Shown here: in pieces, positions 2,141-40,933 of the stretch | Position numbering within the stretch: position 1 is the first letter of the stretch | How the letters are laid out: each line of letters starts with the position of its first letter | From: Betaproteobacteria bacterium | Lineage (GTDB): Bacteria; Pseudomonadota; Gammaproteobacteria; Burkholderiales; SG8-41 | Direction: 5' to 3' | DNA: 40,933 nt | Assembly (NCBI GenBank): GCA_900299145.1 | Contig: OMIN01000097.1 | Coordinates: 1 to 40,933 of the forward strand | The notes under the pieces: generated by a model | Told to the model about the DNA's origin: nothing | What the model saw: only the letters and a program-made list of their open reading frames with translations | Databases searched by the model: none | Translations under genes and position numbers: made by a program

Positions 2141-2617
2141 TCACTCGCACGCGCGGCCCGGCAAGTATTCGAGCACGATGGCGTCCTCGCGGCCCACATA
2201 CGCCGGGTAATAACCGCGCCGCACGCCGATTTCTCGAAACCCCGCGTTGGCGTAGAGCGTGCGCGCAGCCGTGTTCGACACACGCACTTCAAGGAACAGC
2301 ACGATAATATTATTTTTCTTAATTAAATCAAATACATACATCAATAGCGCTCTGCCCAGCCCGCGCCGCTGCCACGCCGCTGCCACACTCAGATTCAGCA
2401 AATGCGCCTCGCCCGCCGCACACGACAGCACGGCGTAGCCCACCATCACGCCTTGCAACTCCATGACCCAGCAAGCACTCCCCGCACTCAGCGAATCGGC
2501 AAAATTGCCGCGCGTCCAAGGGTGGGTGTAAATCACATTTTCGATGGCCATCACAGCGTCGAGATCGGCTCCGGCCATCGGGCGAAAACTCACAACAGGG
2601 TTCAATTGAGCGCTCAT
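2141..2617 (-). CDS. rimI: Ribosomal protein S18 N-alpha-acetyltransferase RimI
   Basis: 158 aa GNAT-fold enzyme that acetylates the N-terminus of ribosomal protein S18. The acetyl-CoA loop is QRRGLG (83-88), followed by LEVR (Glu110) and Tyr122 twelve residues on; the spacing equals the Glu103/Tyr115 catalytic pair known for enterobacterial RimI. It lies directly after tsaB, a common pairing, and before the glycosylase gene. Residues 92-106 are encoded by an AT-rich stretch (2303-2342) unlike the surrounding GC-rich codons, yet the protein has no insertion relative to what I recall of E. coli RimI. No clear Shine-Dalgarno sequence precedes the ATG; a 10-bp palindrome GTTACGTAAC lies just upstream. 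Confidence 0.93.
2317..2342 (+). repeat. AT-rich dispersed motif, copy AT-1 (inside rimI)
   Basis: AATTAAATCAAATACATACA on the plus strand differs at two positions from the same span of copy AT-15. It lies within rimI codons of about residues 93-101 without breaking the frame. The core AATCAA-N4-ATA misses the IHF consensus by one base. Confidence 0.6.
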
Positions 2618-2632
2618 GGGTTACGTAACGCT

Positions 2633-3325
2633 TCAACGTTCATGCGTCATCAGCGCCACTTTGTCGCGCACGTAATGCGGCGCAGCAGACTCGGCGGGCA
2701 GACCGCCGCCGCTGGCAAAAACCGGCACGGCGAGTATCGCGACTTCGCGGGCGCGCGGGTGCGCTGCGTCATCGATGCGGGTGAATTGCACGCCCAACTG
2801 TGCATGGCGTTGAATAAGTGCTTCGCGATACGCCGCAAAGCCGTTACCACAGGCGCACCAGCCGTCACCCGCCACCGCGGGAACGTCTCCCGGCGCGTAA
2901 ACGCCCGGTTCGCTCACCGCGCGCCACGCGCCGCCGGCTTTTTCATAGGCTGCGTGATAGACCTCGCTCATGCGCGCATCCACGCAACACACCACGCGCG
3001 CGGCGCCGCTGGCTTCCGACAACGCCTGCAAGGTACCGATGCCGATCACCGGTTTTCCAAGGCCCGCCGCGAGGCCCTGCGTCACGCCGCACGCCACGCG
3101 CAGGCCAGTGAACGAACCCGGCCCCGCGCCAAAAGCAATGCCGTCGATGGCCTGAAGATTTTCGCCACAGTCACGTAAAAGCTCATGAACCATATCCAGC
3201 AGCAAGCCCGATTGCCGCTGCCCGGCCGAAACCTCGCGATCATCAACCGTGCCATCGCGCCACAACGCCACAGAACAGAAATCGCCGGAGGTTTCCAAAG
3301 CCAGAATTTTTAAAGCGGTGTTCAA
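2633..3325 (-). CDS. tsaB: tRNA threonylcarbamoyladenosine biosynthesis protein TsaB
   Basis: 230 aa ASKHA-fold protein that partners TsaD and TsaE in making t6A37 on ANN-decoding tRNAs. The N-terminal ALETSGDFCSVAL and the GAGPGSFTGLRV loop near residues 68-79 are diagnostic. The start appears to be TTG at 3325, because the family begins only a few residues before ILALETS and no ATG or GTG lies there; the upstream purine stretch (GGGAAAA) is a weak ribosome site. It is the first gene of the minus-strand run tsaB-rimI-glycosylase-lemA-TPM; the rimI start is 15 bases downstream. Confidence 0.93.
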   Translation of the reverse strand: MNTALKILALETSGDFCSVALWRDGTVDDREVSAGQRQSGLLLDMVHELLRDCGENLQAIDGIAFGAGPGSFTGLRVACGVTQGLAAGLGKPVIGIGTLQALSEASGAARVVCCVDARMSEVYHAAYEKAGGAWRAVSEPGVYAPGDVPAVAGDGWCACGNGFAAYREALIQRHAQLGVQFTRIDDAAHPRAREVAILAVPVFASGGGLPAESAAPHYVRDKVALMTHER

Positions 3326-5006: not shown

Positions 5007-5018
5007 TCCGCACCCGGT

Positions 5019-6239: not shown

Positions 6240-6260
6240 TGCGTTTCCTATTCTAAATTT

Positions 6261-6287
6261 ATTCAATAAAAACAGATGCTTATACAA
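6261..6287 (+). repeat. AT-rich dispersed motif, copy AT-2
   Basis: TTCAATAAAAACAGATGCTT on the plus strand, nearly identical to AT-3 (one base different over the 18 bases from CAATAAAAAC on). It lies in the gap between the VOC gene stop and the CoA-transferase start. Confidence 0.75.
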
Positions 6288-6307
6288 ACCCCACCCTACA
6301 GCAAGCC

Positions 6308-7350: not shown

Positions 7351-7360
7351 CCCTCGAAAA

Positions 7361-7445: not shown

Positions 7446-7462
7446 TTGATTTTGGACAATTT

Positions 7463-7810: not shown

Positions 7811-7823
7811 CCCTAGAAAAATA

Positions 7824-7849
7824 CTCAATAAAAACAAATGCTTACAGCA
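7824..7849 (+). repeat. AT-rich dispersed motif, copy AT-3
   Basis: CAATAAAAACAAATGCTTAC and the following AGCA. It fills the ridA-to-HD-gene gap and supplies the ATG at 7838 and the next three codons of the HD gene. Confidence 0.8.
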
Positions 7850-8497
7850 AGGCGCTGGCTGGAGCTTTGGATAAGGCTGGGCGCAACAAGGCAGGCTGAC
7901 GGCGTGCTCGCCGATGCTTACGCCGGGCTGATGGAACGCTTGGCCGAAAAGCACCGTCACTATCACACCGCGCATCACGTCGGCGAATGTCTCGCGCATT
8001 TAGACAGCGCTGGCAGGCTGTGTGAACACGCCGGCGAAGTCGAACTCGCGCTGTGGTTTCACGATGCCATTTATAACCCACGCGCGAAAGACAACGAAGC
8101 CCAAAGCGCGGCCTGGGCCGTAAGGGTGATGCAGGATGCAGCGGTTCCCGCCAACATGGGCAGTAACGTCCCCGCCGAATCACGCGCCCGCGTGCATGGC
8201 CTCATCATGGCGACTTGCCACGACGCACTGCCAGACACGCCGGATGCACAAGTGCTGGTGGATATTGATCTGGCGATCCTCGGTGCGGACGCCGTGCGCT
8301 TTGATGCATACGAAAGCGAGGTGCGCGCGGAGTACGCCTTCGTACCGGATTTCCTGTTTCGGCGCACGCGCAAGAAAATCCTGCGAGGGTTTCTTGATCG
8401 TCCGACCATTTACTCGACCCGCTATTTCCAGGAAAAGCTCGAAAAAAAAGCGCGCGAGAATCTCGCGCGCTCTTTGGCAAAACTCGACGGCGCATGA
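7838..8497 (+). CDS. Predicted HD-superfamily metal-dependent phosphohydrolase (COG4339 type)
   Basis: 219 aa. HYHTAHHV (41-48), FHDAIYNP with His75-Asp76, CHDAL near residue 128 and DIDLAILG near 143 give the HD-domain ligand set; the later YSTRYFQEKLEKKARENL helix is typical of this uncharacterised family. The start at 7838 fits the family N-terminus (RRWLELWIRLG) although no Shine-Dalgarno sequence precedes it; the leader is AT-rich and is part of repeat AT-3. The substrate is unknown; relatives are usually annotated only as predicted hydrolases. It converges on the DGQHR gene with 24 bp between stops. Confidence 0.87.
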   Translation: MLTARRWLELWIRLGATRQADGVLADAYAGLMERLAEKHRHYHTAHHVGECLAHLDSAGRLCEHAGEVELALWFHDAIYNPRAKDNEAQSAAWAVRVMQDAAVPANMGSNVPAESRARVHGLIMATCHDALPDTPDAQVLVDIDLAILGADAVRFDAYESEVRAEYAFVPDFLFRRTRKKILRGFLDRPTIYSTRYFQEKLEKKARENLARSLAKLDGA

Positions 8498-9655: not shown

Positions 9656-9910
9656 AGTGCTGTCTCTCGTCCCTGATGATATGCGGGCTCGGCTTACCAG
9701 CCCTGAATGCGTGCTCGATTTCCGCCTAAAAAACGTACAGCAAGACGGAAACGTTATTCTAACGTTCCACGAGAGCTTTTGCGAGCAAGTTGTTGATAGC
9801 GGCCAGTTAATGGACAGGCTCCACTGCAAATCTCGTGTAGCTGTCCGCACCTTCGCCACAGCCGCCAAGCCGCGCGGCAATACAACACAACTATTTGTTT
9901 TTATTGAATT
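9656..9910. other. Intergenic region upstream of the DGQHR gene
   Basis: 255 bp between the DUF1501 stop and the DGQHR start. It holds an inverted repeat at 9750-9766 and repeat AT-4 at the DUF1501 end. No ORF with family similarity was seen. Promoter hexamers could not be assigned with confidence. Confidence 0.5.
9750..9766. promoter_or_regulatory. Dyad AACGTTA-TTC-TAACGTT, candidate operator
   Basis: A perfect 7-bp inverted repeat with a 3-bp centre, 95 bp upstream of the DGQHR start. The shape suits a dimeric repressor site. DndB-type proteins are known autoregulators, so this could be a self-operator, but the link is inference. Confidence 0.4.
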
Positions 9911-9913
9911 TTA
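9889..9913 (-). repeat. AT-rich dispersed motif, copy AT-4
   Basis: On the minus strand, TTCAATAAAAACAAATAGTT follows the DUF1501 TAA stop (9911-9913) after two bases. It is identical to AT-3 over CAATAAAAACAAAT. Core AAACAA-N4-TTG. Confidence 0.75.
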
Positions 9914-11092
9914 AGCAGTAAGGAACGGCAGCGGCTGGAACCGGCCGCGCAAAGCTGCACTGGAATCTGTACCCCACCAACGCTGGAGTACTGTGGCGTA
10001 AATGTCGCGAAAGTCCACGGAAAACGGCAGATTACCGTTGCCATCCAGCCGGTCGAGCGCGGGCCGCTGAACATAGAGCCCGCCCTTGACGCGCCCGCCC
10101 AGTGCAACATGCACACTCGCGGTGCCGTGATCGGTGCCGGCGCTGCCATTCTCGCGTGGGCGGCGGCCAAACTCCGAATACGTGAGTATCAGAGAGTCGT
10201 CCCAGCGCCGCAACTCACTTAATGCCCCCTTTAGTGCCACCAGCCCGTCAGCCAGTAGCCGCAACAGCGCATTGTGCGCGCCCATCTGGCCGCTGTGGGT
10301 GTCAAAGCCGTTAAGTGACAGCTTGATCGCCGCTACACCCGCCTTGCTGGCGATCACTTGTGCTGCCGTACGCACCGCGTTGCCAAAGCCAGTCTGCGGA
10401 AATTCGGTGCGAAACAAGTGATTCCCATTTAAACCGGCCGCTGCCTGCACGATGTCCTGCTCCACCCGCAAAATATGGCCCAGCGCCGCATTTTGGGACA
10501 GCCCCGCCGCAGCCGCCAGCCGCGCCTGTGCCAGAAACTGCTCGGTGCTGGTGAGAGCAATAGTGCGTGCGCTTCCGGTGCCGCCACCTACGTTCATGAA
10601 CGGCCCCATTTCCGCGCTGCCCACCACCACTGCGTCGGCGGCAAAGCCGCGAGGCACGGGGGCGGCGGCAAATGCCCGCGCCAGCCAGCCATTTTGCAGG
10701 AATTCGTCGCTTTTCGAGGCGGTATCCCAGATTTCGATGGAGCGAAAATGCGACAGATTGGCCGACGGATACCCCACGCCCTGCACTACCGCCAATTCGC
10801 CCGCCTTCCACAGCGGCATCAACGCCGACAGCGCCGGGTTAAAGCCTGAAAATTCATCGAGTTGCAGCACCTGATCACGTGCTATCGCGAGCCGCGGGCG
10901 CAGCACGGCGTACTGCGCATCGGCATACGGAATGACCGTGTTGAGACCGTCGTTACCGCCTTTTAATTCTATTAAAATCAATAGCTTACGGTAATCCGGT
11001 GCGGCTGGCACGGGCAATGCCGCCAGCGCAGGCGCAGCCAGCGTGGTCCACGACACCGCAGCCGCAGTCTGCAAAAAGTCTCTCCGATTCAG
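9911..11092 (-). CDS. DUF1501 exported protein, probable Tat substrate, CTG start
   Basis: 393 aa with the proposed start. The frame begins in a twin-arginine signal (N-R-R-D-F-L-Q-T at residues 2-9, then a hydrophobic stretch and AAPALAALP) only if translation starts at the CTG at 11092-11090, which is preceded by AGGAT 6 bases away and lies just after the DUF1800 stop; a TTG at 11074 would cut off the RR motif. The mature domain shows ELKGGNDGLNTVIPY, HFRSIEIWDTAS, LILTYSEFGRRPRENGSAGTDHGTA and HVALGGRVKGGLY, diagnostic of DUF1501 (alkaline-phosphatase/sulfatase-like fold). It is paired with DUF1800 upstream, as in many bacteria. The substrate is unknown. Confidence 0.88.
   Translation of the reverse strand: MNRRDFLQTAAAVSWTTLAAPALAALPVPAAPDYRKLLILIELKGGNDGLNTVIPYADAQYAVLRPRLAIARDQVLQLDEFSGFNPALSALMPLWKAGELAVVQGVGYPSANLSHFRSIEIWDTASKSDEFLQNGWLARAFAAAPVPRGFAADAVVVGSAEMGPFMNVGGGTGSARTIALTSTEQFLAQARLAAAAGLSQNAALGHILRVEQDIVQAAAGLNGNHLFRTEFPQTGFGNAVRTAAQVIASKAGVAAIKLSLNGFDTHSGQMGAHNALLRLLADGLVALKGALSELRRWDDSLILTYSEFGRRPRENGSAGTDHGTASVHVALGGRVKGGLYVQRPALDRLDGNGNLPFSVDFRDIYATVLQRWWGTDSSAALRGRFQPLPFLTA
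10965..10991 (+). repeat. AT-rich dispersed motif, copy AT-5 (inside DUF1501 gene)
   Basis: CTATTAAAATCAATAGCTTA on the plus strand. The core AATCAATAGCTTA matches WATCAANNNNTTR exactly. It encodes residues 35-43 (KLLILIELK) of the conserved DUF1501 strand using AT-rich codons. Confidence 0.55.
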
Positions 11093-12654: not shown

Positions 12655-13293
12655 TTAAATCTTGCTGGGCTCCGGACGCGGCTTGCGCCGTTCCATGTGC
12701 GCCTTGCGCGCAGCCATGATTTCGTCGCGCGTGACCTGACCGTCCTTGTTGGCGTCTACGCGATCAAAGTGGCGCGCCAGGCGCGGCATGGCTTTTTCAG
12801 CCTCGGCGCGACTGATCGTGCCGTTGCCGTCGGCATCCGCGCCCTTGAAGCGCTGCTCGAAGCGCGCCGTGCGCTCAGCGCGGCATTTTTCGGGATTGGC
12901 CTGACACTCGGCGCGTCGCTTTTCGAAATTCGCCTTCATTTCCTTGCAGCGCTCCGGATTGGCCTTGCACATTTCGCCCATGTGCGCCATGCGTTCGCTG
13001 CGGCACTTTTCCGGGTTGGCCTTGCATTCGGCCATCATCGCGTCGCGTTTGGCCATCATTTCCTTGCAACGCTCGGCGTTGTCCTTGCACCACTGTTCCC
13101 GGCGAGCCTGAAACTCGGCGCGGCACTTGGCGGGATCGGCCCGGCATTGCTCCATGCGCGCCTGACGCTCTTCGGGCGAAAAGCCCTTGCCCGCAAAGCC
13201 GGGGGGCCCATCGGCAGCCAGAGCACCGGTGGCGCCCATCGGTATCAACAAGGCAATAACAGCTAATACTTTGTTTTTAAACAATTTCTTCAT
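12655..13293 (-). CDS. Secreted Cys-repeat protein with two EF-hands
   Basis: 212 aa with a signal peptide (residues 1-27). Residues 50-137 hold five C-X6-C pairs at 50/57, 69/76, 90/97, 109/116 and 130/137, mostly of the form C-(K/R/Q)-A-(N/D)-P-x-(K/R)-C; the pair spacing alternates 19 and 21, giving a 40-residue super-repeat. The linkers are Met- and charge-rich and look helical. Two canonical EF-hand loops follow: 153-164 (ligands D153, D155, N157, T159, S161, E164) and 180-191 (D180, N182, D184, Q186, T188, E191), so calcium binding is likely. The Cys array could bind metal or form disulfides. AGGAG precedes the ATG. The signal peptide codons overlap repeat AT-6. Confidence 0.85.
   Translation of the reverse strand: MKKLFKNKVLAVIALLIPMGATGALAADGPPGFAGKGFSPEERQARMEQCRADPAKCRAEFQARREQWCKDNAERCKEMMAKRDAMMAECKANPEKCRSERMAHMGEMCKANPERCKEMKANFEKRRAECQANPEKCRAERTARFEQRFKGADADGNGTISRAEAEKAMPRLARHFDRVDANKDGQVTRDEIMAARKAHMERRKPRPEPSKI
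13263..13286 (-). repeat. AT-rich dispersed motif, copy AT-6 (start of EF-hand gene)
   Basis: TTGTTTAAAAACAAAGTATT on the minus strand. It shares the first 15 bases (TTGTTTAAAAACAAA) with AT-7 and forms codons 4-11 of the EF-hand gene's signal peptide. Core AAACAA-N4-TTA. Confidence 0.7.
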
Positions 13294-13924: not shown

Positions 13925-13967
13925 GCCGGCAAAATCTTCATTTGTAACAATTTGTTACGATGCCGGC
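13925..13967 (+). promoter_or_regulatory. Candidate OmpR-family operator: TTTGTAACAA/TTTGTTACGA tandem repeat
   Basis: Two 10-bp direct repeats lie head to tail at 13941-13950 and 13951-13960, one helical turn apart as expected for tandem OmpR-type wing-helix monomers. They also form the dyad GTAACA-ATT-TGTTAC. Outer arms GCCGGCA (13925-13931) and TGCCGGC (13961-13967) are perfect inverted repeats. The site lies 60-80 bp upstream of the response-regulator ATG, so autoregulation is likely. Confidence 0.55.
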
Positions 13968-14849: not shown

Positions 14850-16169
14850 ATGACTCTTTGGCCCAGCACGCTCCTTTGGCGCAGCGCCCTCCTGATCGCG
14901 CTGTTGCTGATGCTGGCGCATCTGGCGTGGCTGCAGATTTTCCGCGTCTCGACGCGTGAGCCGCGCGCGCGGCAGGTGTCGCAACAGATTATCAGCACGG
15001 TCAATCTGACGCGCGCCGCGCTGGTCACCGCGGAGCCCTCCAAGCGCTACAGCCTGCTTGGCGAAATCGCCCAACGCGAAGGGGTCGAGGTGCATCTCGC
15101 GCAACCCGGCGAGAAGCTCGGCGTGCTGCCGCGAACCGGATTCCATGAGGTCGTCGAAGCCGATTTGCGTGCGCAATTGGGGCCGGCTACACGGTTTACA
15201 CTCTCGCGCAATGGCGTCATCGGCATCTGGGTCAGTTTCGATATTGATGGCGATGGCTACTGGATGCTGATGCCCGAAGCACGACTGGTCGCTGATGAAT
15301 CGCTGCGCTGGATCGGCTGGGGCGCGCTGGTGCTGCTGCTCGCTGTGGCTGGCGCAGTGCTGATCGTGGCGCGCATCAACCGGCCGCTGCGCGCACTGAC
15401 CGCCGCCGCTGCACAGATGGGCCGCGGCGCAACCCCCGCTCCGGTGGACGAAAGCGGCCCCACGGAAATTCGCACGCTGTCGCGCGCTTTTAATCAGATG
15501 GCCGCCGACCGCAAGGCGCTCGACGATGAACGCGCGCTGCTGCTGGCGGGGGTGTCGCACGATCTGCGCACGCCGCTCGCGCGCATACGCCTCGGCGTGG
15601 AAATGCTGGAGGGCGATGCATCGCTGCGCGAGGGCATCGCGCAGGACATCGAAGACATTGACTCCGCCATTAACCAGTTTCTGGATTTCGCGCGGGCGGC
15701 GTCATCGGAAAGCGTAACGTCCGGCGCCAGTCTTAACGATATCATCGACGCACTCGCACCCAAATACGCACGCGCAGGCAAGGCGCTCACCGTAAAAACC
15801 GGTTATGTGCCGCCGCTACCGCTGCGCAAAGTGGCGATGCAACGGCTCATCGGCAACCTGATCGACAATGCATTTCGGCATGGCGGCAGCGAAGTCACGG
15901 TGATCACGGGCGGCAATGCGCACGCGGCCTTTGTGGAAGTGCTGGATCGCGGCCCCGGCATCCCCCCCGCGGAAGCCGAGCGCATGCTGCAACCGTTTAC
16001 ACGCATGGACATCGCGCGCAGCACCAGCGGCACCGGGCTGGGCCTGGCGATCGTGGACCGCATCGCCAAAATGCACGGTGGCAATGTGCGGCTGCTGCCA
16101 CGCGAAGATGGATTGAAGGGCTTGCGCGCGCGCGTGGAACTGCCGGTGCCCCTGAAAAATATTGTTTAA
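14850..16169 (+). CDS. envZ: EnvZ-type sensor histidine kinase
   Basis: 439 aa. TM1 about residues 12-31, periplasmic sensor about 32-152, TM2 about 155-175, HAMP about 176-228, H-box with phospho-His237 in GVSHDLRTPLAR, N-box NLIDNAFRHGG, G1 DRGPGIP and G2 STSGTGLGLAIVDRIAKMHGG. It phosphorylates and dephosphorylates the adjacent regulator, probably in response to osmotic or membrane signals as for EnvZ; the stimulus here is not known. No clear ribosome site precedes the ATG. The final codons Asn-Ile-Val-stop run into repeat AT-7. It converges on ispF. Confidence 0.92.
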   Translation: MTLWPSTLLWRSALLIALLLMLAHLAWLQIFRVSTREPRARQVSQQIISTVNLTRAALVTAEPSKRYSLLGEIAQREGVEVHLAQPGEKLGVLPRTGFHEVVEADLRAQLGPATRFTLSRNGVIGIWVSFDIDGDGYWMLMPEARLVADESLRWIGWGALVLLLAVAGAVLIVARINRPLRALTAAAAQMGRGATPAPVDESGPTEIRTLSRAFNQMAADRKALDDERALLLAGVSHDLRTPLARIRLGVEMLEGDASLREGIAQDIEDIDSAINQFLDFARAASSESVTSGASLNDIIDALAPKYARAGKALTVKTGYVPPLPLRKVAMQRLIGNLIDNAFRHGGSEVTVITGGNAHAAFVEVLDRGPGIPPAEAERMLQPFTRMDIARSTSGTGLGLAIVDRIAKMHGGNVRLLPREDGLKGLRARVELPVPLKNIV

Positions 16170-16188
16170 AAACAAATACTTAAAAACA
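16162..16188 (+). repeat. AT-rich dispersed motif, copy AT-7 (end of envZ)
   Basis: TTGTTTAAAAACAAATACTT on the plus strand, sharing TTGTTTAAAAACAAA with AT-6 and ACAAATACTTA with AT-8 and AT-15. It supplies the envZ TAA stop (16167-16169). Confidence 0.8.
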
Positions 16189-16211
16189 GTTTTGAGGACA
16201 ACACGGCGGTA

Positions 16212-18159: not shown

Positions 18160-18948
18160 TCAATTTCTCCACCGCGCCAAAAATTCCCGCCAATGCGGCT
18201 CGGCGGATTTCCCCAGCGTCGAACGCACCAGTTCGCATTGCTCACGATGCTGATCCGGTGTGAGCGTGCCGCGCATCATCTGAAAGCGCAGGTAAACCAG
18301 ATACGTGTTCACCACGTCGGTCTGGCAATAGTTGCTGATGTCGGCGAGCTTGCCAGCCTGAAACGCATCCCACACCTGCGCGCCCGACATGCCGAGCTTG
18401 CCGGGCAGGCCCATCAGTTGCGCCAGATCGTCCAGCGGAGCATTCGCGCGCGGCTGATACATCGCCAGCAGATCCATTAAATCCAGATGGCGCGAATGGT
18501 AGCGGCTGATGTAGTTATTCCACTTGAAATCGCGGCTATCGCGATGGTCACCCTCGCCCATGTCCCAGTACCGCGGTGCACGCACGCCATGCACGAGGCC
18601 GCGATAATGCAGTACCGGCAGATCAAATCCGCCGCCATTCCAGGACACCAGTTGCGGCGTGTATTTTTCGATGCCATCGAAGAAGCGCTGGATAACTTCG
18701 CCTTCCGATTCGTTATTCGCGCCCAGCGACCACACCTTGAAGCTGTCGCGGTCGCGCAGCGCGCACGAAATCACCAGCACGCGGTGCAGATGCAATTGCA
18801 GAAAATCACCACCCGTGGCCTGCCGCCGCAACTGAAATGCCATGGCGGCAACGTCGGCGTCGGGCAGATCGGCGCCCAGCTCGTGGAGCTGGCGCAGGCC
18901 CGCAATATCCGGCACCGTCTCGATGTCGAACACCAAGACTGGCGTCAC
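18160..18948 (-). CDS. Predicted 3'-5' exonuclease (PolB-like DEDD, PF10108/COG3298 type)
   Basis: 262 aa. The DEDD exonuclease motifs are FDIETVPD (D8, E10), SWNGGGFDLPVL and YCQTDVVNTYLVYLRF with the last Asp. Motif III is of the TDV-N-T-Y type seen in the PolB-like exonuclease subfamily. The nucleic acid substrate is unknown. GTG at 18948 is the start, with AAAGGA 6 bases upstream, inside the edge of repeat AT-8; no ATG fits. It follows ydbL closely (31-bp gap), so it is probably in the ydbH-ynbE-ydbL operon. Confidence 0.87.
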   Translation of the reverse strand: MTPVLVFDIETVPDIAGLRQLHELGADLPDADVAAMAFQLRRQATGGDFLQLHLHRVLVISCALRDRDSFKVWSLGANNESEGEVIQRFFDGIEKYTPQLVSWNGGGFDLPVLHYRGLVHGVRAPRYWDMGEGDHRDSRDFKWNNYISRYHSRHLDLMDLLAMYQPRANAPLDDLAQLMGLPGKLGMSGAQVWDAFQAGKLADISNYCQTDVVNTYLVYLRFQMMRGTLTPDQHREQCELVRSTLGKSAEPHWREFLARWRN

Positions 18949-18956
18949 AAAAATTC

Positions 18957-18982
18957 CTTTTAAAACAAATACTTATTAATTA
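18957..18982 (+). repeat. AT-rich dispersed motif, copy AT-8
   Basis: TTTTAAAACAAATACTTATT then AATTA on the plus strand. It fills the gap between the ydbL TAA stop and the exonuclease ribosome site; the minus strand reading supplies AAAAGGA. Identical to AT-15 over TTAAAACAAATACTTA. Confidence 0.8.
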
Positions 18983-19402
18983 TTTCTTGACCCACGCACC
19001 ACTGGCATTTTGAACAAACCAGCCGGACCGCGCGCGATCAATCCAGCGCTGACCGAAGGTGCCGCGAATATCGCCTTCCCACTCCGGGTGATTGTTGGCA
19101 CGCGCGATTTCGCGATACAGCGCGGCACGATCCTGATTTTCCGCTGCAATCAACGAATTGACTGCCGCACGCTGCGGCAGCGGCACCGCCGCCGGGTCGC
19201 GCAAGGCGACGTTACCGTCACGCGTCAAACCCACCGCGCCACTGGCATACAGTGGGGCGAGTTCGGCGTGACGCTTTTGCATGCTGCCCTGTATGGCGGT
19301 AATGCCCGGCGTGTTGATCTCAAGATTGACCTGGGCAAACACGTGGCTTGCGCCCGCAAGCGCCACAATCAGCATCAGGATATTTGCAATACGCTGCTTC
19401 AT
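18980..19402 (-). CDS. ydbL: YdbL family (DUF1318) periplasmic protein
   Basis: 140 aa with a signal peptide (residues 1-23, cleavage at VFA-QV). The mature DUF1318 domain shows LEINTPGITAIQGSMQKRHAEL, GNVALRDPAAVPLPQRAAVNSLIAAENQDRAALYREIARANN and a C-terminal WVKK. Family knowledge: in E. coli YdbL assists the YdbH-YnbE intermembrane bridge that moves phospholipids. AAGGAG precedes the ATG. The order ydbH-ynbE-ydbL is the same as in enterobacteria. The stop codon overlaps repeat AT-8. Confidence 0.9.
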   Translation of the reverse strand: MKQRIANILMLIVALAGASHVFAQVNLEINTPGITAIQGSMQKRHAELAPLYASGAVGLTRDGNVALRDPAAVPLPQRAAVNSLIAAENQDRAALYREIARANNHPEWEGDIRGTFGQRWIDRARSGWFVQNASGAWVKK

Positions 19403-23433: not shown

Positions 23434-24432
23434 TTACCGAGTCAAGCCGGCAAGTTCCTCGCAATATTGCGTAACGCCCTGTTCTACCGAAAGAAATGCC
23501 CCTGTGTAGCCCGCTGCGCGCAGGTTGGCCAGATCAGCCTGGGTATAGCTTTGGTATTTACCCTTGAGGTCTGCCGGGAACGCGATGTATTCGATAAGCC
23601 CCTGCGCCTGCATTGCCGCCAGTGCCAACTCGCCCTCGCCCCTCGCCTTGCGGCAGGCGTTGATGGCCGCCACGGCAACATCGTTAAAGCTCTGCGCTGC
23701 CCCAGTGCCGCAGTTGTAAATACCTGATTTTAAGGGGTTATCCAGAAAGTACGTATTCACCTTGACGACATCTTCTACGGACACGAAATCGCGTTGCTGT
23801 TCGCCGTTACCGAAGCCGCCGCTGCCTTCAAACAGCCTCACCTTGCCTTGCGCGCGATACTGGTTAAAAAAATGAAACGCCACCGAAGCCATGCGCCCCT
23901 TGTGTTGTTCGCGCGGGCCGTAGACATTGAAATAACGCAGCCCGACCACCTGCGAATGGATATGCGGCAGCATGCGCCGTACAAACTGGTCGAAGAGCAG
24001 CTTGGAATAGCCATAAACATTGAGCGGCTTTTCGCAATCCGGCACTTCGCGAAAGCCGGTGAGATCGCCATAGGTCGCCGCTGACGAAGCGTAAATCAAA
24101 GGCGTTTTCTGCGCCACGCAAAAATCGAGCAGCCGCCGCGAATAGCGATAGTTGTTCTGCATCATGTAGCGGCCGTTGGATTCGGTGGTATCCGAACACG
24201 CACCGTGATGCAGCAACGCAGTCACGCTGTTATTGAACAGCCCCTTTTCGAGCGCGGCAATGAACTCGTCCTTGTCCAGATAATCATCAATCTGACAATC
24301 CACCAGATTGGTGAAACGGTCGCCCTGCGTGAGATCGTCTACGGCGATAATTCGTGTGATACCGCGCACGTTAAGCGCCTTGACGAGATTTGCGCCGATA
24401 AAGCCCGCCGCGCCGGTTACAATATAAGTCAT
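23434..24432 (-). CDS. hldD: ADP-L-glycero-D-manno-heptose 6-epimerase
   Basis: 332 aa. Last step of ADP-heptose synthesis for the LPS inner core. NAD(P)-binding [11 protein letters not shown] (7-17), the S-S-A-A-T-Y-G segment, [13 protein letters not shown] with the Tyr-x-x-x-Lys pair, and [13 protein letters not shown] are all present. Only 17 bases separate it from the upstream kinase gene stop, and this gap is entirely the AT-rich repeat AT-9; no Shine-Dalgarno sequence is visible before the ATG. Confidence 0.96.
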
Positions 24433-24450
24433 TGTTTTTATTATATTTTT
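24423..24450 (-). repeat. AT-rich dispersed motif, copy AT-9
   Basis: On the minus strand ATAATAAAAACAATGACTTA, compare AT-3 CAATAAAAACAAATGCTTAC. It makes up the gap between the heptose kinase stop and hldD and continues into the first codons of hldD (ATG ACT TAT ATT). Confidence 0.65.
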
Positions 24451-25379
24451 TAGAAAAGTTCCTGCGGCGTGACCACCGCAGTGCCGAACTTGCCGACAAC
24501 AATCCCCGCCGCAAGGTTGGCAATGCGCACCGCATCATCCATCACCATGCCGGCACCCAGCGCCACGCCCAGGGTCGCAATCACCGTGTCGCCCGCGCCT
24601 GTGACATCGTATACCTCGCGCGCCTGAGCGGGCACGTGCAGGCGCTGCCCTTCTCTACTATCCCGATATAGCGTCATGCCTTCCTCGCTGCGAGTCACCA
24701 GAAGTGCCGCGAGGCGCAGTGACCTGCGTAACTTTTGCGCACGATTGGTGAGATCGGCTTCGCTGCGTGCGCGGCCCGCCACCTGATTGAATTCACTGAG
24801 ATTGGGCGTTAGCAATGTAGCACCGCGATATCGGCTGAAATCGTCGCCTTTCGGATCCACCAGTACCGGCTTGCCCGCCTTGCTGGCAGCTGCGATCATG
24901 GCGTCGATATGCGCAAGGCCGCCCTTGCCGTAGTCCGACAGGATGACCGCATCGTGCGCACGCACCAGCGCACGATATTCGCGCAGCTTCGCTGCCAGCA
25001 CTTCGTGGCCCGGCGTGGTCTCGAAATCGATGCGCAGCAGTTGCTGCTGGCGGCCGATGACGCGCAGCTTCACCGTGGTATCGATGGACTTGTCGCGATG
25101 CAGCTGCGCGCGCACTTTTTCTTGTCTGAGCAGTGCGGCAAGCTGAGCACCGGCTTCATCGCGCCCGACCACCGACAGCAACGTAACATGCGCACCCAGC
25201 GCCGCCGCGTTACGCGCCACGTTGGCTGCACCGCCCAGGCGTGCTTCGCTGCGCTTGACATGCACCACGGGCACCGGCGCCTCCGGCGAAATGCGTGCAA
25301 CGTCGCCGAACCAGTAACGATCCAGCATCACATCGCCCACTACCAGCACACGGGCTTTTTTGAATGCTGCGAGGCTCAT
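24450..25379 (-). CDS. rfaE1: D-glycero-beta-D-manno-heptose-7-phosphate kinase (RfaE domain I)
   Basis: 309 aa PfkB-family sugar kinase. [12 protein letters not shown] near residue 30 is the HldE family substrate region, [10 protein letters not shown] the second motif, SDYGKGGL the third and [14 protein letters not shown] the catalytic Asp and anion hole. Only domain I is present: the nucleotidyltransferase half of the E. coli HldE fusion is missing and must be encoded elsewhere (rfaE2), as in many Betaproteobacteria. The start overlaps the pyrF stop as ATGA. Confidence 0.94.
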
Positions 25380-27768: not shown

Positions 27769-28056
27769 TTACTTTCGCGCCACATCCACGCGGTCACGCA
27801 ATTCCTTGCCCGCCTTGAAATGCGGCACATGTTTCGCGGGCACCTGCACCCGGTCGCCGGATTTGGGATTGCGTCCGATGCGAGGCGGACGATAATTCAG
27901 ACCAAAACTGCCAAAGCCGCGAATCTCGATGCGCTGCCCCGCGGCGAGACTCTTACCCATGGCATCCAAAATCATCTTTACCGCCAATTCAGCGTCCTTT
28001 GCCACCAACTGGGGAAAGCGCGCCGCAAGTTTTGCGATCAGCTCCGACTTGGTCAT
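27769..28056 (-). CDS. ihfB: Integration host factor subunit beta
   Basis: 95 aa, the normal length. DNA-bending HU/IHF fold with the family signature [44 protein letters not shown], including the intercalating Pro of the RNP arm. It pairs with IhfA, which is not in this window. GGGAGCATC precedes the ATG; rpsA ends 12 bases upstream, the usual rpsA-ihfB linkage, and a terminator follows. Its product may bind the AT-rich motifs described in this window, which resemble the IHF consensus. Confidence 0.97.
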
Positions 28057-28068: not shown

Positions 28069-29790
28069 TTATTGACTATTCGCCGTATCCAACTTTGCCT
28101 TGAGCAACGCGCCAAGATTGGTGGTCCCGGTGCTTGCCGACTTGCTATCCGCCGCGACTTTCTGCATCGCCGCCGACTCCTCCGCAAGGTCTTTCGCCTT
28201 GATCGAGAGATTGATCGAACGGTTCTTGCGATCAATGTTGATAATCATCGCCGTTACCGAATCGCCTTCCTTCAGGTGAGTGCGGATGTCCTCCACCCGG
28301 TCACGCGCCACTTCCGATGCCCGCAGATACCCTTCGACATCGCCCATCAATTGTATGACAGCCCCCTTGGCGTCAATGGATTTTACCGTACCTTGGACTA
28401 TTGAGTTCTTGTCGTTGGTGGACACGAAATTGGTGAACGGGTCACCGTCCATCTGCTTGACACCGAGCGAAATGCGCTCGCGCTCGACATCAATCGCCAG
28501 CACCACGGCCTCGACTTCGTCGCCTTTCTTGTAGTTGCGCACGGCTTCCTCGCCGGGCAACGACCACGACAAATCGGACAGATGCACCAGCCCGTCGATG
28601 TTGCCGTTAAGGCCGACGAAAATGCCAAAGTCGGTGATCGATTTGATCTGACCTTTGACCTTCTCGCCTTTCTTGTGGTTCATCGAGAACTCTTCCCACG
28701 GATTCGGCATGCACTGCTTCATGCCGAGCGAAATGCGGCGGCGGTCCTCGTCGATTTCGAGCACCATCACTTCCACTTCGTCGCCCAATTGCACGACCTT
28801 GGACGGATGCACGTTCTTGTTGGTCCAGTCCATTTCGGAGACGTGTACCAAGCCTTCGATGCCGGTTTCAATTTCGACAAATGAACCATAATCGGTGAGG
28901 TTCGACACCTTGCCGAAGAGCCGCGTGCCGGCCGGATAGCGGCGGCCGAGGCCCACCCACGGGTCTTCGCCCAGTTGCTTCATGCCCAGCGAAACGCGGT
29001 TTTTTTCCTGATCGAATTTGAGGATCTTCGCCTGCACTTCGTCGCCCACCGCGAGCACTTCGCTCGGATGCTTGACACGGCGCCATGCGAGATCGGTGAT
29101 GTGCAGCAGGCCATCGATGCCGCCGAGATCGACAAACGCACCGTAGTCTGTGATGTTCTTGACGATGCCCTTGACCACTGCGCCTTCCTGCAGGTTGGCA
29201 AGAAGCTTTTGACGCTCTTCACCTTGCGTCACTTCGAGCACGGCGCGGCGCGATACGACCACGTTATTGCGCTTGCGGTCGAGCTTGATGACCTTGAAGT
29301 CCATCGATTTATTTTCGTACGGGGTGGTGTCCTTCACCGGACGGATGTCCACCAGCGAACCAGGCAGGAACGCGCGAATGCCGTTCACCATCACGGTGAG
29401 TCCGCCTTTAACCTTGCCGTTGACCATGCCCTGCACGACACGGCCTTTTTCCAGCGCGTCTTCGAGATCGAGCCACGACGCAAGGCGCTTCGCCTTGTCG
29501 CGCGACAGACGCGTTTCACCGAAACCGTTTTCCAGCGACTCGATGGCGACGCTGATGAAATCACCGACCTTGGCATCGAACACGCCATCGTCGGTCATGA
29601 ATTCTTCCTTGGGGATATAGCTTTCGGACTTGAGTCCGGCATTGACGACCACAAAATTGTCATCGATGCGTACTACTTCGGCGGTGATCACTTCGCCGAT
29701 GCGCATTTCCTTGCGCGACAGGCTTTCTTCAAATAACGCGGCAAAACTTTCCGCACCCGTACTGGCGGCGGCTTGGGGTTGGGTTGTCAT
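28069..29790 (-). CDS. rpsA: 30S ribosomal protein S1
   Basis: 573 aa with six S1 RNA-binding repeats (approx. residues 35-100, 119-184, 205-274, 291-362, 378-449 and 465-535), each with G-x-V-x-x-(I/L)-x-(D/K)-x-G-(A/I/S)-F. The C-terminal tail is Ala-rich. S1 brings mRNAs with weak or no Shine-Dalgarno sequences to the ribosome. The ATG itself lacks a clear ribosome site (the leader ends ATTTTTAATCC) and a stem-loop lies 32 bases upstream, similar in principle to the specialised rpsA leader in E. coli. ihfB follows with a 12-bp gap. Confidence 0.97.
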
Positions 29791-30655: not shown

Positions 30656-30660
30656 AATAA

Positions 30661-30686
30661 AAATTAAATAAAATCATATACTTATG
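30661..30686 (+). repeat. AT-rich dispersed motif, copy AT-10
   Basis: AATTAAATAAAATCATATAC then TTATG on the plus strand; a more degenerate copy with core AATCAT-N4-TTA. It fills the gap between the aroA stop and the cmk start. Confidence 0.55.
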
Positions 30687-30706
30687 AAATTTCTCTAATG
30701 TACAAC

Positions 30707-32080: not shown

Positions 32081-32980
32081 TCAACGCTTCGCCTTCACCA
32101 ACCAGCGCTCACGCGCATGCCGCGCACGCTCGAACAGCGCCTGCATCGCATCACCATCGCCGGCTTTAAGGCGAGAACGCAAATATTTGATTTCATTGAT
32201 ATATTTATCAATATCGGCGAGCAGCGCCACACGATTGGCAAGAAAAATGTCTCGCCACATTTCCGGCGAGCTGCCGGAAATGCGTACCGTGTCACGCAGG
32301 CCGCCAGCGGAAAAACCAAGCAACCGTTTGGCATCCTTGCGTTGCGCGAGCAGGTCCATCAGCGCAAACGCCACCACATGCGGCAGGTGGCTCACCGCCG
32401 CGAGAATTTCGTCGTGCTCGCGCGCCTGCAAGCGCACGACATTCGCGCCGCATGCCTGCCACGCGGCGCGCACCGCGCTCACGGCTTTGGGTGAAGTTTC
32501 CTTTTGTGGCACCACAATCACCTTGCGCCCGCGATACAACTCGGCGAACGCCGCCGCCGCACCGCTGTTTTCGGTGCCCGCCATCGGGTGCGCCGGCACG
32601 AACATTTTGAAATGCGCGCCAAGGTGTTTGCGCGCGCAGGCGATGACATCCTGCTTGGTGCTGCCTCCATCAGTGACGATGGTCTTGGCCCCCAAGTGCG
32701 GGGCGATCAGCTTCATCACGCCGGGCATTTGCCCAACCGGCGTGCCGATCAGTACCATGTCAGCATCGCGCACCGCATCGCGCGCGTCGAGTGATATCGC
32801 GTCGATCACGCCGAATTTCAGCGCGGTGTTCAGATTCTTGCTCGTGCGGCCCACGCCGACCACGTGCTGCACCGCCTTGGCCTTTTTCAACGCCAGCGCG
32901 AATGAGCCGCCAATCAGCCCGACGCCGATGATGACCAGTTTGCCGATCGGCTTTTCGGCAGATTTTAATGGCGATTTCAT
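32081..32980 (-). CDS. tyrA: Prephenate dehydrogenase
   Basis: 299 aa. NAD(P)-dependent conversion of prephenate (or arogenate) to the tyrosine precursor. Rossmann GVGLIGGSFALALKKA near residues 19-34, GTPVGQMP, TDGGSTKQDV, PAHPMAGTENSG and the catalytic-His SHLPHVVAFALMDL region are present. There is no chorismate mutase domain; that activity is on PheA here. ATG at 32980 overlaps the hisC stop as ATGA. Residues 260-268 (INEIKYLR region) lie on the AT-rich motif AT-11. Confidence 0.94.
   Translation of the reverse strand: MKSPLKSAEKPIGKLVIIGVGLIGGSFALALKKAKAVQHVVGVGRTSKNLNTALKFGVIDAISLDARDAVRDADMVLIGTPVGQMPGVMKLIAPHLGAKTIVTDGGSTKQDVIACARKHLGAHFKMFVPAHPMAGTENSGAAAAFAELYRGRKVIVVPQKETSPKAVSAVRAAWQACGANVVRLQAREHDEILAAVSHLPHVVAFALMDLLAQRKDAKRLLGFSAGGLRDTVRISGSSPEMWRDIFLANRVALLADIDKYINEIKYLRSRLKAGDGDAMQALFERARHARERWLVKAKR
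32180..32203 (-). repeat. AT-rich dispersed motif, copy AT-11 (inside tyrA)
   Basis: On the minus strand ATCAATGAAATCAAATATTT, compare AT-12 TTCAATTAAATCAAATGTTT. Core AATCAAATATTTG matches WATCAANNNNTTR exactly. It is coding sequence for tyrA residues 260-268. Confidence 0.5.
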
Positions 32981-35174: not shown

Positions 35175-35185
35175 GTAGCTTTGGA

Positions 35186-35335
35186 CGTGAGGCGTGAAGC
35201 GCTGAAGGTGAGGCATGAGGCGTGAGGCGTGAGGCGCATGGTCATCGCAGCAAGCATATTAGATACTAAACATTTGATTTAATTGAATTTTTTAAACTAC
35301 CACAAAACCGGTGTTACGCCTCACGCCTCACACCT
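35186..35335. repeat. Facing heptamer arrays H7-d with AT-rich centre, serA-pheA gap
   Basis: Left array 35186-35236 has repeated GTGAGGC with variants GTGAAGC and ATGAGGC; right array 35315-35335 has GCCTCAC units in the opposite sense and touches the serA stop codon. Between them is the AT-rich motif AT-12. Transcribed, the arrays could pair into a long GC-rich hairpin between the serA and pheA cistrons. Confidence 0.8.
35266..35290 (-). repeat. AT-rich dispersed motif, copy AT-12
   Basis: On the minus strand TTCAATTAAATCAAATGTTT then AG. Core AATCAAATGTTTA matches WATCAANNNNTTR exactly. It lies at the centre of the heptamer element between serA and pheA. Confidence 0.75.
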
Positions 35336-36510: not shown

Positions 36511-36547
36511 TGTCGATCCTTGTTTCTCTACGGGTACTTTTCTTGTT

Positions 36548-37630: not shown

Positions 37631-37642
37631 GATCGCCTGCGT

Positions 37643-37671
37643 ATAATTAATTTAACTATTTGATTTTAAAT
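37643..37671 (-). repeat. AT-rich dispersed motif, copy AT-13
   Basis: On the minus strand ATTTAAAATCAAATAGTTAA then ATTAATT, resembling AT-8 in its TTAATTAT tail. Core AATCAAATAGTTA matches WATCAANNNNTTR exactly. It fills the gyrA-serC gap. Confidence 0.75.
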
Positions 37672-37675
37672 GATT

Positions 37676-40237
37676 TTACAGCAACTCGCCTTGCGGGTCG
37701 TCATCTTCGGTTTCGACAATTTTCTCCAGACCGGCGAGTTTTTCGCTTTCATCCAGATTAATGAGCCGAACGCCTTGCGTCGAGCGGCCCTGCTCGCGCA
37801 CCTCCGAAACCCGCGTGCGAATCAGCACACCGCCGGTGGTGATGAGCATGATTTCGTCTTCCTTTGTAACCAGCTGCGCGGCGAGAAGTTTCCCGTTGCG
37901 CTCACTGCACTGAATGGCGATCATGCCCTGCGTGCCGCGGCCGTGGCGCGTGTATTCCGCAATCGGCGTACGCTTGCCATAGCCGTTTTCGGTGGCGGTC
38001 AACACCGAGATTTTTTCCTCGCCCACCGCCAGTAGCGAAATCACTTTCTGATTCTTCTGCAACTTCATGCCGCGCACGCCGGCGGCATTGCGGCCCATCG
38101 GGCGCACTTCGTCCTCGGCAAAACGCATCGCCTTGCCGGCATCCGAGAACAGCATGATGTCCTGCTTGCCGTCGGTCAACGCCACGCCAATCAGGAAATC
38201 GCCGTCTTCCAGCGTCACCGCGATGATGCCCTTGTTCATCGGCCGCGAGAACGCCGACAACGCGGTTTTCTTCACGGTGCCGTTGGAGGTCGCCATGAAC
38301 ACAAAATGGTCGTCGTCGAACGCCGTTACCGGCAGCACGGCGGTGATTTTCTCGTGCTCCATCAACGGCACGAGGTTCACAATCGGCTTGCCGCGCGAGG
38401 CGCGCGTGCCCTGCGGCACTTCGTACACCTTGAGCCAGTACACGCGTCCGCGATTGGAGAAACACAGAATGTAATCATGCGTGTTGGCGATGAACAGCTT
38501 GTCGATGAAATCTTCTTCCTTCGTCGTCGTCGCCTGTTTGCCGCGGCCGCCGCGCTTTTGCGCGCGATAGTCCGCGACGGGCTGTGATTTCATGTAGCCG
38601 CCGTGCGACAACGTCACCACCACGTCTTCGCGCGCGATCAGGTCTTCGTTCGAGATATCGCTGGTCTGGGTGACGATTTCACTGTAGCGCTCGCCGCCGT
38701 ACTGCTTTTTGATCTCGGTCAACTCACTCGCAATAATGCGCGTCACGCGCGCCGGCTTGGCGAGGATATCGAGCAGATCGACGATCTTGTCCATCGTCTC
38801 CTTGTATTCGGCGACGATCTTGTCGGATTCGAGCGCGGTCAGGTTTTGCAGACGCATTTCGAGGATGCGCTGCGCCTGCACGTCAGAGAGCTTATAGCCC
38901 TGCTTGTGCAAGCCGAATTCCGGCGACAAACCATCAGGTTTGGAAATCGCGCCGTCGCCGCGCGCCAGCATTTCTTCCACCAGCTTCGAACGCCAGAAGC
39001 GGCTCATCAATTCCACTTTGGCTTCGGCGGGCGTGGCTGCGGCCTTGATCAGCGCGATCACGTCATCGACGTTCGACAACGCCACCGCCAGGCCTTCCAG
39101 AATGTGCCCGCGTTCACGCGCCTTGCGCAGCTCGAACACGGTGCGGCGGGTCACGACCTCGCGCCGGTGCCGCAGGAAGGCATCTAAAATCTGCTTTAAA
39201 TTCAAAAGCTTAGGCTGCCCATCCAGCAGGGCCACCATGTTCATGCCGAAGCTGTCCTGCATCTGTGTTTCTTTCCACAGATTATTCAGGATAATTTCGG
39301 GCACTTCGCCGCGCTTAAGCTCGATCACCGCGCGCATGCCCGATTTATCGGATTCGTCGCGGATATCCGAGATGCCTTCGATTTTTTTCTCGCGCACCAG
39401 TTCGCCGATTTTGGCGAGCAGGTTGGCCTTGTTCACCTGATACGGCAGCTCGTCAATGATGATGGCAACGCGGCCGCCCTTGTCGCTTTCCTCGAAATGC
39501 GTACGCGCGCGCATGATCACGCGGCCGCGGCCGGTGCGATAACCTTCCTTCACGCCCTCTACGCCGTAGATGATGCCCTTGGTCGGAAAGTCCGGCGCCT
39601 TGACGATATCGATCAGCGTTTCAATATCGGTGTCCGGCGTTTTCAGCAGCAACTGGCAGGCGTCGATGACGTCGCTCAAATTGTGCGGCGGAATATTCGT
39701 GGCCATGCCCACCGCAATGCCCGACGAGCCGTTCACCAGCAGATTCGGCACGCGCGAAGGCAGCGTGCGCGGTTCTTTCTCCTTGCCGTCGTAATTGTCG
39801 TCGAAATCGACGGTTTCCATGTCGATGTCGGCGAGCAGTTCCGACGCAATGCGCTCCAGCCGGCATTCGGTGTAACGGTAAGCGGCCGCCGAATCACCGT
39901 CCACGGAACCGAAGTTGCCCTGCCCGTCGATGAGCGGGTAGCGCATCGAAAAATCCTGCGCCATACGCACCAGCGCTTCATACGTCGCCGAGTCGCCGTG
40001 CGGGTGATACTTACCGAGCACATCACCCACCACACGCGCGCACTTGACATAGGCGCGGTTCCACGTGGTATTCGATTCGTGCATCGCAAAAAGGATGCGC
40101 CGGTGCACGGGCTTCAGGCCGTCGCGTGCATCGGGCAACGCGCGACCGACGATCACACTCATGGCGTAATCGAGGTAGGAGCGCCGCATCTCTTCTTCGA
40201 GGCTTATCGGCAGGGGTTCTTTGGCGAATTGATCCAT
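37676..40237 (-). CDS. gyrA: DNA gyrase subunit A
   Basis: 853 aa. Breakage-reunion subunit of gyrase. The catalytic pair Arg121-Tyr122 (AAAYRYTE) has E. coli numbering; the quinolone region [15 protein letters not shown] has Ser83 and Glu87, the latter being Asp in E. coli and Glu in some wild-type species, so no resistance is implied. The GyrA-box QKRGGRGK lies near residue 560, followed by the six-bladed C-terminal DNA-wrapping domain and an acidic tail ([12 protein letters not shown]). The length is slightly below E. coli's. No strong ribosome site precedes the ATG. A divergent OmpA-family gene begins 415 bp upstream. Residues 342-349 lie on AT-14. Confidence 0.98.
39193..39213 (+). repeat. 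AT-rich dispersed motif, copy AT-14 (inside gyrA, weak)
   Basis: CTTTAAATTCAAAAGCTTAG on the plus strand, alignable with AT-5. It encodes gyrA residues 342-349 in the conserved [11 protein letters not shown] segment with unusual TTA and AAT codons. It could be a chance AT-rich coding patch. Confidence 0.35.
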
Positions 40238-40652
40238 TTATGGGACTTTAAACTCTCGAAGGCATTCAAATTGCACCGGCGCTAGCCCCAAGATGTAGTG
40301 AACAAGGCTTGGGCAGGCGGCTAAATCGTGGGATTTTACCATGGCGCCGACAGTGGCACGCCGCAATTGACGCAATGCGGCTAAACACCATTGGTGAGGT
40401 GCTTGTGAGATCGAATCGTCGCGCACCATTCCGGCGCAAACAGCCACGCTATCGGCAAGCACATACCGCACGCACGCAACTGGTGCGCCCGTAGCCGACA
40501 CTGCGGGCTATGCTATACTTTTTGCATCGTTTCTCGTGGTTCCCTCCGCATTACCAGCACTCCATCTTTGCGTCCATTGCGCCCCAAGGCGCTAGCCCAA
40601 CGCACTGCGTGTCTCGCCTAAACGTTCAGCCTACCCTACGCCGGGAGGAAAA
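40238..40652. other. Divergent gyrA/ompA-like intergenic region
   Basis: 415 bp without a supported gene. It holds an 11-bp direct repeat GGCGCTAGCCC at 40278-40288 and 40588-40598, an extended -10 promoter for the plus-strand gene near 40514 and its ribosome site GGGAGGA at 40643-40649. No gyrA promoter could be assigned. Confidence 0.55.
40491..40519 (+). promoter_or_regulatory. Extended -10 promoter for the OmpA-family gene
   Basis: TGCTATACT at 40511-40519 gives a TGN-TATACT extended -10. The -35 is weak (GTAGCC at 40491-40496, 17-bp spacing), as expected for extended -10 promoters. A transcript would carry a leader of about 125 nt. Confidence 0.5.
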
Positions 40653-40933
40653 ATGCAATTAAAACAAATACTTACAGCATGTTCACTGGCCGCCGCCGTG
40701 GCCGCATGTTCCAACGCGCCGTCGCCCACGACCGGCAATTTCCGCAATCAGGGTTATCTGCTTGATACCGCCGGCAACAACGCCGTGGTGCGTTCACTCG
40801 GTTACGACACTTGCGTGCGCACAAGCGACTGGACGCCGGCGCGCGCCATTGTCGAATGTGATCCGGATCTGGTGCCCAAACCTGCCGTGAAACCGCCGGT
40901 GGCGCCGCCGCCAAAAGTCGACACGCCCCCACC
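40653..40933 (+). CDS. OmpA-family outer-membrane protein, N-terminal part (runs off window)
   Basis: 93 codons to the window end. The signal sequence MQLKQILTACSLAAAVAAC ends in a lipobox-like VAAC (Cys19), so it may be a lipoprotein. The mature start shows GYDTCVRTSDWTPARAIVECDPDLVPKP followed by a Pro/Val/Lys linker, the betaproteobacterial OmpA N-terminus preceding an OmpA peptidoglycan-binding domain outside this window. GGGAGGA lies 3-10 bases before the ATG. Codons 3-9 are the AT-rich motif AT-15. An OmpA gene divergent from gyrA is a known betaproteobacterial arrangement. Confidence 0.85.
   Translation, partial: MQLKQILTACSLAAAVAACSNAPSPTTGNFRNQGYLLDTAGNNAVVRSLGYDTCVRTSDWTPARAIVECDPDLVPKPAVKPPVAPPPKVDTPP
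40656..40680 (+). repeat. AT-rich dispersed motif, copy AT-15 (start of OmpA-family gene)
   Basis: CAATTAAAACAAATACTTAC then AGCA on the plus strand, forming codons 2-9 (Gln-Leu-Lys-Gln-Ile-Leu-Thr-Ala) of the signal peptide. It is the clearest copy and shares TTACAGCA with AT-3. Confidence 0.8.

Follow-up and report, generated by a model that had tools for sequence, protein, structure and literature searches.

A short AT-rich motif that recurs across a 40,933-nt stretch of betaproteobacterial DNA (hereafter, the window), a single contig within a 5.5 Mb genome of 158 contigs (60% G+C in the parts read), is very probably a binding site of integration host factor (IHF), as predicted from its sequence. 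The whole proposal, namely, that these are IHF sites and that they have an architectural role partly replacing HU, is given a probability of about 70%; for the architectural role taken separately, we consider the balance to be even. IHF sites as such are already known, and their number alone is not the novelty because for E. coli the sites with the consensus are put at around 300 (PMC8421141, in excerpt) or the motif occurrences at about 3,000 (PMC6907758, in excerpt). What is new here is their strength, gene-end placement, even spacing, and conservation, together with the lack of HU; such use of IHF sites was not found in the portions of the open-access literature searched.

The recurrence of the motif, first described in a sequence-only reading of the window, was readily reproduced. 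All 14 AT-rich islands of the window (24-mers with ≥83% AT) overlapped a match to a 38-bp profile at ≥16 bits, and there were 17 such matches plus 3 weaker ones at 11–13 bits. The two claimed pairs also hold on inspection by eye: the 16-mer TTAAAACAAATACTTA is common to the copies near 18949 and 40648, and a single base over AATAAAAACAxATGCTTA separates the copy near 6256 from that near 7818. A 20-mer form of the originally proposed consensus (≤3 mismatches) had one match in the window and none in 100 shuffles. Genome-wide, the 15-mer WAAAACAAATACTTA with ≤1 mismatch had 403 + 389 (=792) matches, while its reversed control had 0 + 0. The profile at ≥14 bits found 143 sites in 441 kb compared with 1 and 0 when the same sequence was shuffled (two versions), an excess over shuffled sequence that the sequence-only reading had made a condition of its claim; the reversed profile at the same cut-off gave 41 matches, presumably through detection of the same AT-rich islands. 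The copies constitute one directional motif of ~35 bp rather than a loose A-rich signal. Strong sites (≥20 bits) numbered 238 in 792.5 kb, i.e., one per 3.3 kb, from which ~1,650 are expected in the genome, close to the earlier estimates of one per 2.7 kb and some thousand copies. A scan of the window against Rfam returned no family at the gathering threshold.

Next, we compared the layout of the motif with that of known IHF sites. In a profile of 92 copies, an A-tract at positions −11 to −6 is followed by a spacer and the core CAAATACTTA, and sequence information spans positions from about −12 to +23 (~35 bp). IHF sites of E. coli and phage lambda likewise consist of the core consensus WATCARNNNNTTR on the right and, in strong sites, an A-tract on the left, and extend over 35 bp overall (PMC8421141, in excerpt). 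Profile positions 3–15 match WATCARNNNNTTR, deviating at the third position, and the A-tract stands upstream of the core at the spacing of IHF sites. With either A or T accepted at the third position, the motif agrees with the 13-bp core at each of its nine specified positions; the frequencies are A 0.97, A 0.93, A/T 0.60/0.39, C 0.96, A 0.96, and A/G 0.72/0.22 before N4 and T 0.92, T 0.95, and A/G 0.87/0.11 after it. The third position (A 60%, T 39%, as against T in the published consensus) makes the core here mostly AAWCARNNNNTTA rather than WATCARNNNNTTR. Nor does N4 vary freely in this species, with A, T, and A at ~0.80 each in a profile whose N-position preferences are partly built in, as it was trained on sites first located with the 15-mer; these columns were therefore blanked for other genomes (neutral profile). 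Together, the third-position A and the constrained N4 would be consistent with a drift in specificity or with the action of a further constraint. A search of 441 kb with the textbook core WATCAANNNNTTR alone gave 41 matches vs 7 for its reverse, and the A-tract emerged from this search though it was absent from the query. The motif presumably matches the H′ site of phage lambda as well. Among the explanations first offered, a protein-binding site is thus favored by the reproduced IHF consensus and A-tract, and the statement that no named family was known to have this consensus no longer holds, the predicted family being IHF.

Both subunits of the putative binder, IHF alpha/beta, are encoded in the genome. 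The window contains ihfB (27769..28056, − strand), which scores 155.9 bits against the NCBIfam model NF001222 for IHF beta (cut-off 115) and whose PDB matches are headed by IHF beta chains and an IHF fusion. It adjoins a gene for an S1-repeat protein (28069..29790, − strand; PF00575 in six stretches), a putative ribosomal protein S1 judging by its repeats and place, which served as a synteny anchor. On another contig (C100), ihfA reaches 159.2 bits against the NCBIfam IHF alpha model (cut-off 111) and lies between a pheT-like and a MerR-regulator-like reading frame, both named by eye. These two were the only PF00216 proteins in the genome; both exceed the IHF equivalog cut-offs and neither reaches any HU cut-off in NCBIfam, and no HU was detected at an E-value of 1e-18.

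We then examined how the absence of HU relates to site number across genomes. Among 74 genomes of the family, 40 had ≥100 matches to an IHF-shaped pattern, and none of these 40 had HU, while each of the 22 genomes with HU had ≤32 matches. The expanded genomes comprised 14/14 of genus g1, 1/1 of g6, 21/21 of g7, 3/3 of g8, and, in g2, G014. The count was at least fourfold that of the reversed control in 39 of them; the exception, G009 (187 vs 82, i.e., 2.3-fold), is an HU-less member of the window's own genus in which the neutral profile found 17 sites in 80 kb vs 2 in shuffled sequence. The clearest within-genus contrast was provided by G014 (116 vs 12 in the control), as HU is present in 12/15 genomes of g2; in g3, G093 (56 vs 2, HU not found, 72% complete) offers a weaker one. 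One genome, G010, had no PF00216 gene at all, probably because of an assembly gap. A strict rule that HU loss gives expansion is ruled out by the 12 of 52 HU-less family genomes that were not expanded, including 4/4 of g9 and 4 in g4, although five of the 12 are ≤80% complete and may merely miss HU from the assembly. The absence of HU looks permissive but not sufficient.

In a sample of 300 genomes of the order (9 of them from the family), 278 had HU and 22 did not. Nine of the latter were the family members, all with ≥100 matches, and 13 lay outside the family, where none of the 11 listed reached 100 (the highest count was 77 vs 39 in the control). Several HU-bearing genomes outside the family had ≥100 matches but similar reversed controls (e.g., G113 with 213/214 and G355 with 308/258). 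Another genome with HU, G238, had 260 matches vs 69 in the control; in a 77-kb sample of this genome (41% G+C) we found 29 sites vs 15 in shuffled sequence, and their spacing was not even. G+C content varies among lineages and may contribute to site number. A small tree joined g1 with g6 and did not resolve most other genera. As the HU-less lineages are related and their genera poorly resolved, there are few independent events, and HU loss and expansion may reflect only a few.

Further analysis revealed that the sites are mostly intergenic and biased toward the upstream stop codon. Since genes were called by a simple script, counts within coding sequence are upper bounds, and on that basis 52 of the 238 sites in 792.5 kb lay ≥90% inside called genes. 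Sites straddle start and stop codons, as first described, because they lie close to gene ends. In gaps of 60–249 bp, a site was present in 69/182 tandem, 16/27 convergent, and 8/52 divergent junctions, and in gaps of ≥250 bp the classes were alike (19/45, 11/23, and 18/43, respectively). Within tandem gaps of 60–600 bp, 31 of 86 sites fell in the first fifth, on the side of the upstream stop, and 6 in the last. The location toward upstream stops agrees with the suggestion of a translation or transcript-end signal, but the use of both orientations (71 sites in the same orientation as the tandem genes and 54 in the opposite one) does not. By a crude hairpin-plus-T rule, a link to intrinsic terminators was rejected for both tandem ends (1/59 with a site vs 10/168 without) and convergent ends (1/27 vs 5/73). 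Replication polarity of the KOPS kind was likewise rejected, orientation showing no GC-skew bias (85/74 where skew was negative and 43/36 where it was positive), and the orientations of neighboring sites were random.

The sites are also more evenly spaced than chance would predict. At ≥20 bits, the mean spacing in the 792.5 kb was 3.24 kb with a coefficient of variation (CV) of 0.58, as compared with 0.96 ± 0.06 for uniform placement and 0.91 ± 0.05 for junctions reshuffled within gap class (0/1000 as low in both cases). Only 2 of 221 spacings were <100 bp (matches within 15 bp having been merged by the scan). In a genome of another genus, G019, the CV was 0.48 (18 sites; 0/500 uniform nulls as low), and in G018 it was 0.60 (32/500). 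In stretches pooled from 11 congeners, which are partly homologous to each other and so not independent, and for which the null was uniform placement rather than a junction shuffle, evenness varied with the cut-off: the CV was 0.67 at 26 bits (7/1000 uniform nulls as low) and 0.88 at 18 bits (243/1000), with 7–40/1000 as low across 22–34 bits.

To compare orthologous junctions, as the sequence-only reading had proposed, we anchored stretches from 12 congeners on the genes of the window, dropped junctions without recognizable orthologs, and counted G009 apart. At the 10 site-bearing junctions of the window, 56 of 70 orthologs likewise had a site, compared with 3 of 150 at its siteless junctions, and 54 of the 56 conserved sites kept the same orientation. 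Whole sites are therefore mostly inherited and kept rather than freshly inserted; turnover was seen at one junction (35175–35334). In G009, 0/3 site-bearing and 0/10 siteless junctions had a site. In the 56 ortholog pairs, identity was 91–100% at seven of the nine core positions and 64–68% at the two where two letters alternate, while it was 55–79% in the A-tract, 62–82% in N4, and 36–66% in the flanks; the 16-bit score required of each site favors the conserved columns in this comparison.

IHF is a known promoter cofactor, and the sites could be ordinary local IHF sites acting at individual gene promoters, as would fit their prevalence in intergenic gaps and the lack of depletion at divergent junctions in gaps of ≥250 bp (18/43). 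We consider this unlikely, since sites are scarce at divergent junctions in the shorter gaps (8/52 vs 69/182 tandem and 16/27 convergent), crowd toward the upstream stop in tandem gaps (31/86 in the first fifth vs 6 in the last), and are evenly spaced. A new DNA-uptake sequence of the USS/DUS kind, whose copies would spread through biased uptake by a receptor that favors DNA with the motif, is a little less probable still. USS and DUS resemble the motif in having >1,000 copies, A/T tracts flanking a core, and both orientations; the window encodes a ComEA-like helix-hairpin-helix protein (22660–23430); and the variable positions of the motif differ between genera. Even spacing has been reported for USS too and hence fails to separate uptake from the IHF reading. 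Under uptake, however, the match to the IHF consensus at nine specified positions (A/T at the third), along with the A-tract, would be a coincidence, and no link to HU loss would be expected. USS and DUS have other cores, and USS lie on average about 1 kb apart and form many close pairs, 23% of USS in one H. influenzae strain lying within 100 bp of another (PMC7811141, in excerpt); such pairs, a typical though not strictly defining feature of USS, are scarce here (2/221). The uptake option of the sequence-only reading is thus disfavored by both the consensus match and the few close pairs.

The other option raised there was a small mobile or templated repeat; that the motif is such an element (REP/BIME, Correia-like, or MITE) with an IHF site inside it by chance is very improbable. 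REP/BIME elements, including the IHF-binding RIB/RIP kind of E. coli, are palindromic composite repeats; they too are extragenic, are often found 3′ of genes, and in part bind IHF, but the motif here is a single asymmetric predicted protein site. A mobile element would fit copies that are dispersed, numerous, and mostly extragenic, and in Neisseria, also a betaproteobacterium, some Correia repeat enclosed elements share these traits and hold an IHF site (PMC2649163, in excerpt). Correia elements, however, are mobile, can carry the IHF site only in their longest form (153–157 bp), and number about 120–250 copies (PMC2649163, in excerpt), while the conserved unit here is the predicted IHF site alone. 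Immediately beyond the site, information drops to background level, and it stays near zero for 60 bases upstream and as far as +75 downstream, without inverted ends; no target duplications or longer shared sequence were seen in the aligned copies of the 92-copy profile. Orthologous junctions (56/70 vs 3/150, with 54/56 in the same orientation and one turnover junction) also do not show the insertion polymorphism of a mobile repeat. Under the null explanation, the directional motif would merely be read into the AT-richness of gene ends and short gaps. In its favor, the reversed profile also finds matches (41 vs 143 at 14 bits), but this explanation was rejected as hardly credible given the 792 vs 0 matches genome-wide, the 1 and 0 in shuffles, and the conservation at orthologous junctions. 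Moreover, a relative of similar G+C content has few sites (in samples of 100 kb each, 2 in G033 at 63% and 11 in G020 at 61%).

IHF and HU have mostly been studied jointly in E. coli, where strong IHF sites are limited and HU binds nearly everywhere. The sites described here differ from those of E. coli and lambda in that they lie at gene ends, are evenly spaced, are conserved at orthologous junctions, and occur where HU was undetected; a strict pattern had 189 matches in 792 kb here (10 reversed) vs 0 (0 reversed) in a small, 100-kb sample of E. coli. In the proposed architectural role, IHF would occupy sites close to many transcription-unit ends, approximately every 3 kb, and would bend DNA sharply at them, the bend at a specific site being ~160 degrees (PMC8421141, in excerpt). 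Such bends could fix where supercoiled loops fold, between genes, and the result would be a sequence-encoded nucleoid scaffold covering part of the work of HU. In simulation, IHF pins plectonemes and can split DNA into topological domains (PMC9519438, in excerpt). More tentatively, and as a possibility that we hold to be less than even, the lineage lost HU and rebuilt its nucleoid around a lattice of ~1,650 strong IHF sites, written into the genome and kept even by selection, so that folding is encoded in the sequence. An HU-less lineage with conserved, even, strong sites would offer a natural experiment on architecture carried by sequence-specific bending, with neighboring HU-bearing genera as comparison genomes. 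It would also give a named answer for a type of dispersed AT-rich repeat otherwise filed as unknown from raw sequence.

Specifically, several predicted IHF sites of the window (positions refer to the 38-bp profile match) recur at orthologous junctions in the same orientation. The best of them, at 30656..30693 (+, 50.3 bits), had a counterpart in this orientation in 11/11, and the same was true of those at 6254..6291 (+, 43.8 bits; 3/3), 9879..9916 (−, 42.1 bits; 7/7), and 18947..18984 (+, 45.6 bits; 4/4). Counterparts in the same orientation were found for 3/4 in the case of 7816..7853 (+, 45.7 bits) and 5/7 in that of 16154..16191 (+, 47.8 bits), which lies between convergent genes. The site at 24416..24453 (−, 41.8 bits) recurred at 7/8 orthologous junctions, the miss being G009. 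A divergent junction holds both 13255..13292 (−, 23.6 bits) and the weaker 13929..13966 (+, 21.8 bits) and bears a site in 6/7 orthologs. At the turnover junction, the site at 35258..35295 (−, 43.4 bits) had counterparts in only 2/12, both in the opposite orientation.

Some matches fall within called genes: 2310..2347 (+, 36.7 bits) and 10960..10997 (+, 29.0 bits) lie within the crude calls of genes 2141–2578 and 9911–11074, respectively, and 32171..32208 (−, 37.3 bits) lies within called gene 32081–32980, with a site at the matching place in L021, L022, L024, and L035 but not in L023, L025, or L070. A weak match at 23708..23745 (−, 18.5 bits), also within a called gene, is possibly due to chance. 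Around gyrA, the site at 37644..37681 (−, 38.5 bits), between gyrA and the next gene, recurred at 8/10 orthologous junctions, with G009 accounting for one of the two misses; two of the 8 ortholog sites had decayed to ~17 bits. Another weak match, at 39184..39221 (+, 20.5 bits), is inside gyrA, in orthologs too, and is probably kept by the coding sequence. Upstream of gyrA, the site at 40646..40683 (+, 44.2 bits) was also present in L022, L023, L024, L025, L035, and L070, with none nearby in L021. The GyrA protein encoded in the window is 92% identical to a GyrA from a betaproteobacterial metagenome assembly.

Besides the dispersed AT-rich motif, the window carries short direct and inverted repeats of the TGAGGCG type at 30846-30888, 35173-35236 and 35308-35356. 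Parts of these regions were also matched elsewhere in the source genome and in congeners, and the repeats possibly constitute a second family of dispersed repeats. We also found an inverted pair with ATCTGCG/AATCTG units at 7407-7438 and 18049-18080; the region at ~7351-7455 had many short matches in the source genome and in congeners, mostly at 79-86% identity. Two adjacent genes of the L-PSP (RidA-like) family, at 7000-7350 and 7463-7810, have similar 3′ ends and likely represent a tandem duplication.

The (−) strand encodes a ComEA-like helix-hairpin-helix protein (22660-23430), which may be a DNA-uptake receptor or an additional DNA-binding protein; its tail is long, repetitive and rich in Lys, Ala and Asp. 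A protein matching the DndB domain (8522-9880, (−) strand), with a GmrSD match below threshold, is possibly defence-related.

Among the relatives, the HU-less congener G009 has a third PF00216 (IHF/HU family) gene on contig C113 (L142), which by eye appears divergent and IHF-beta-like. The sampled G009 DNA has a G+C content of 47%, with relatively few clear predicted IHF sites. Five metagenome records titled Bordetella parapertussis (L023, L024, L025, L026 and L070) are probably mislabelled; their GyrA proteins share 90-91% identity with that of the window.
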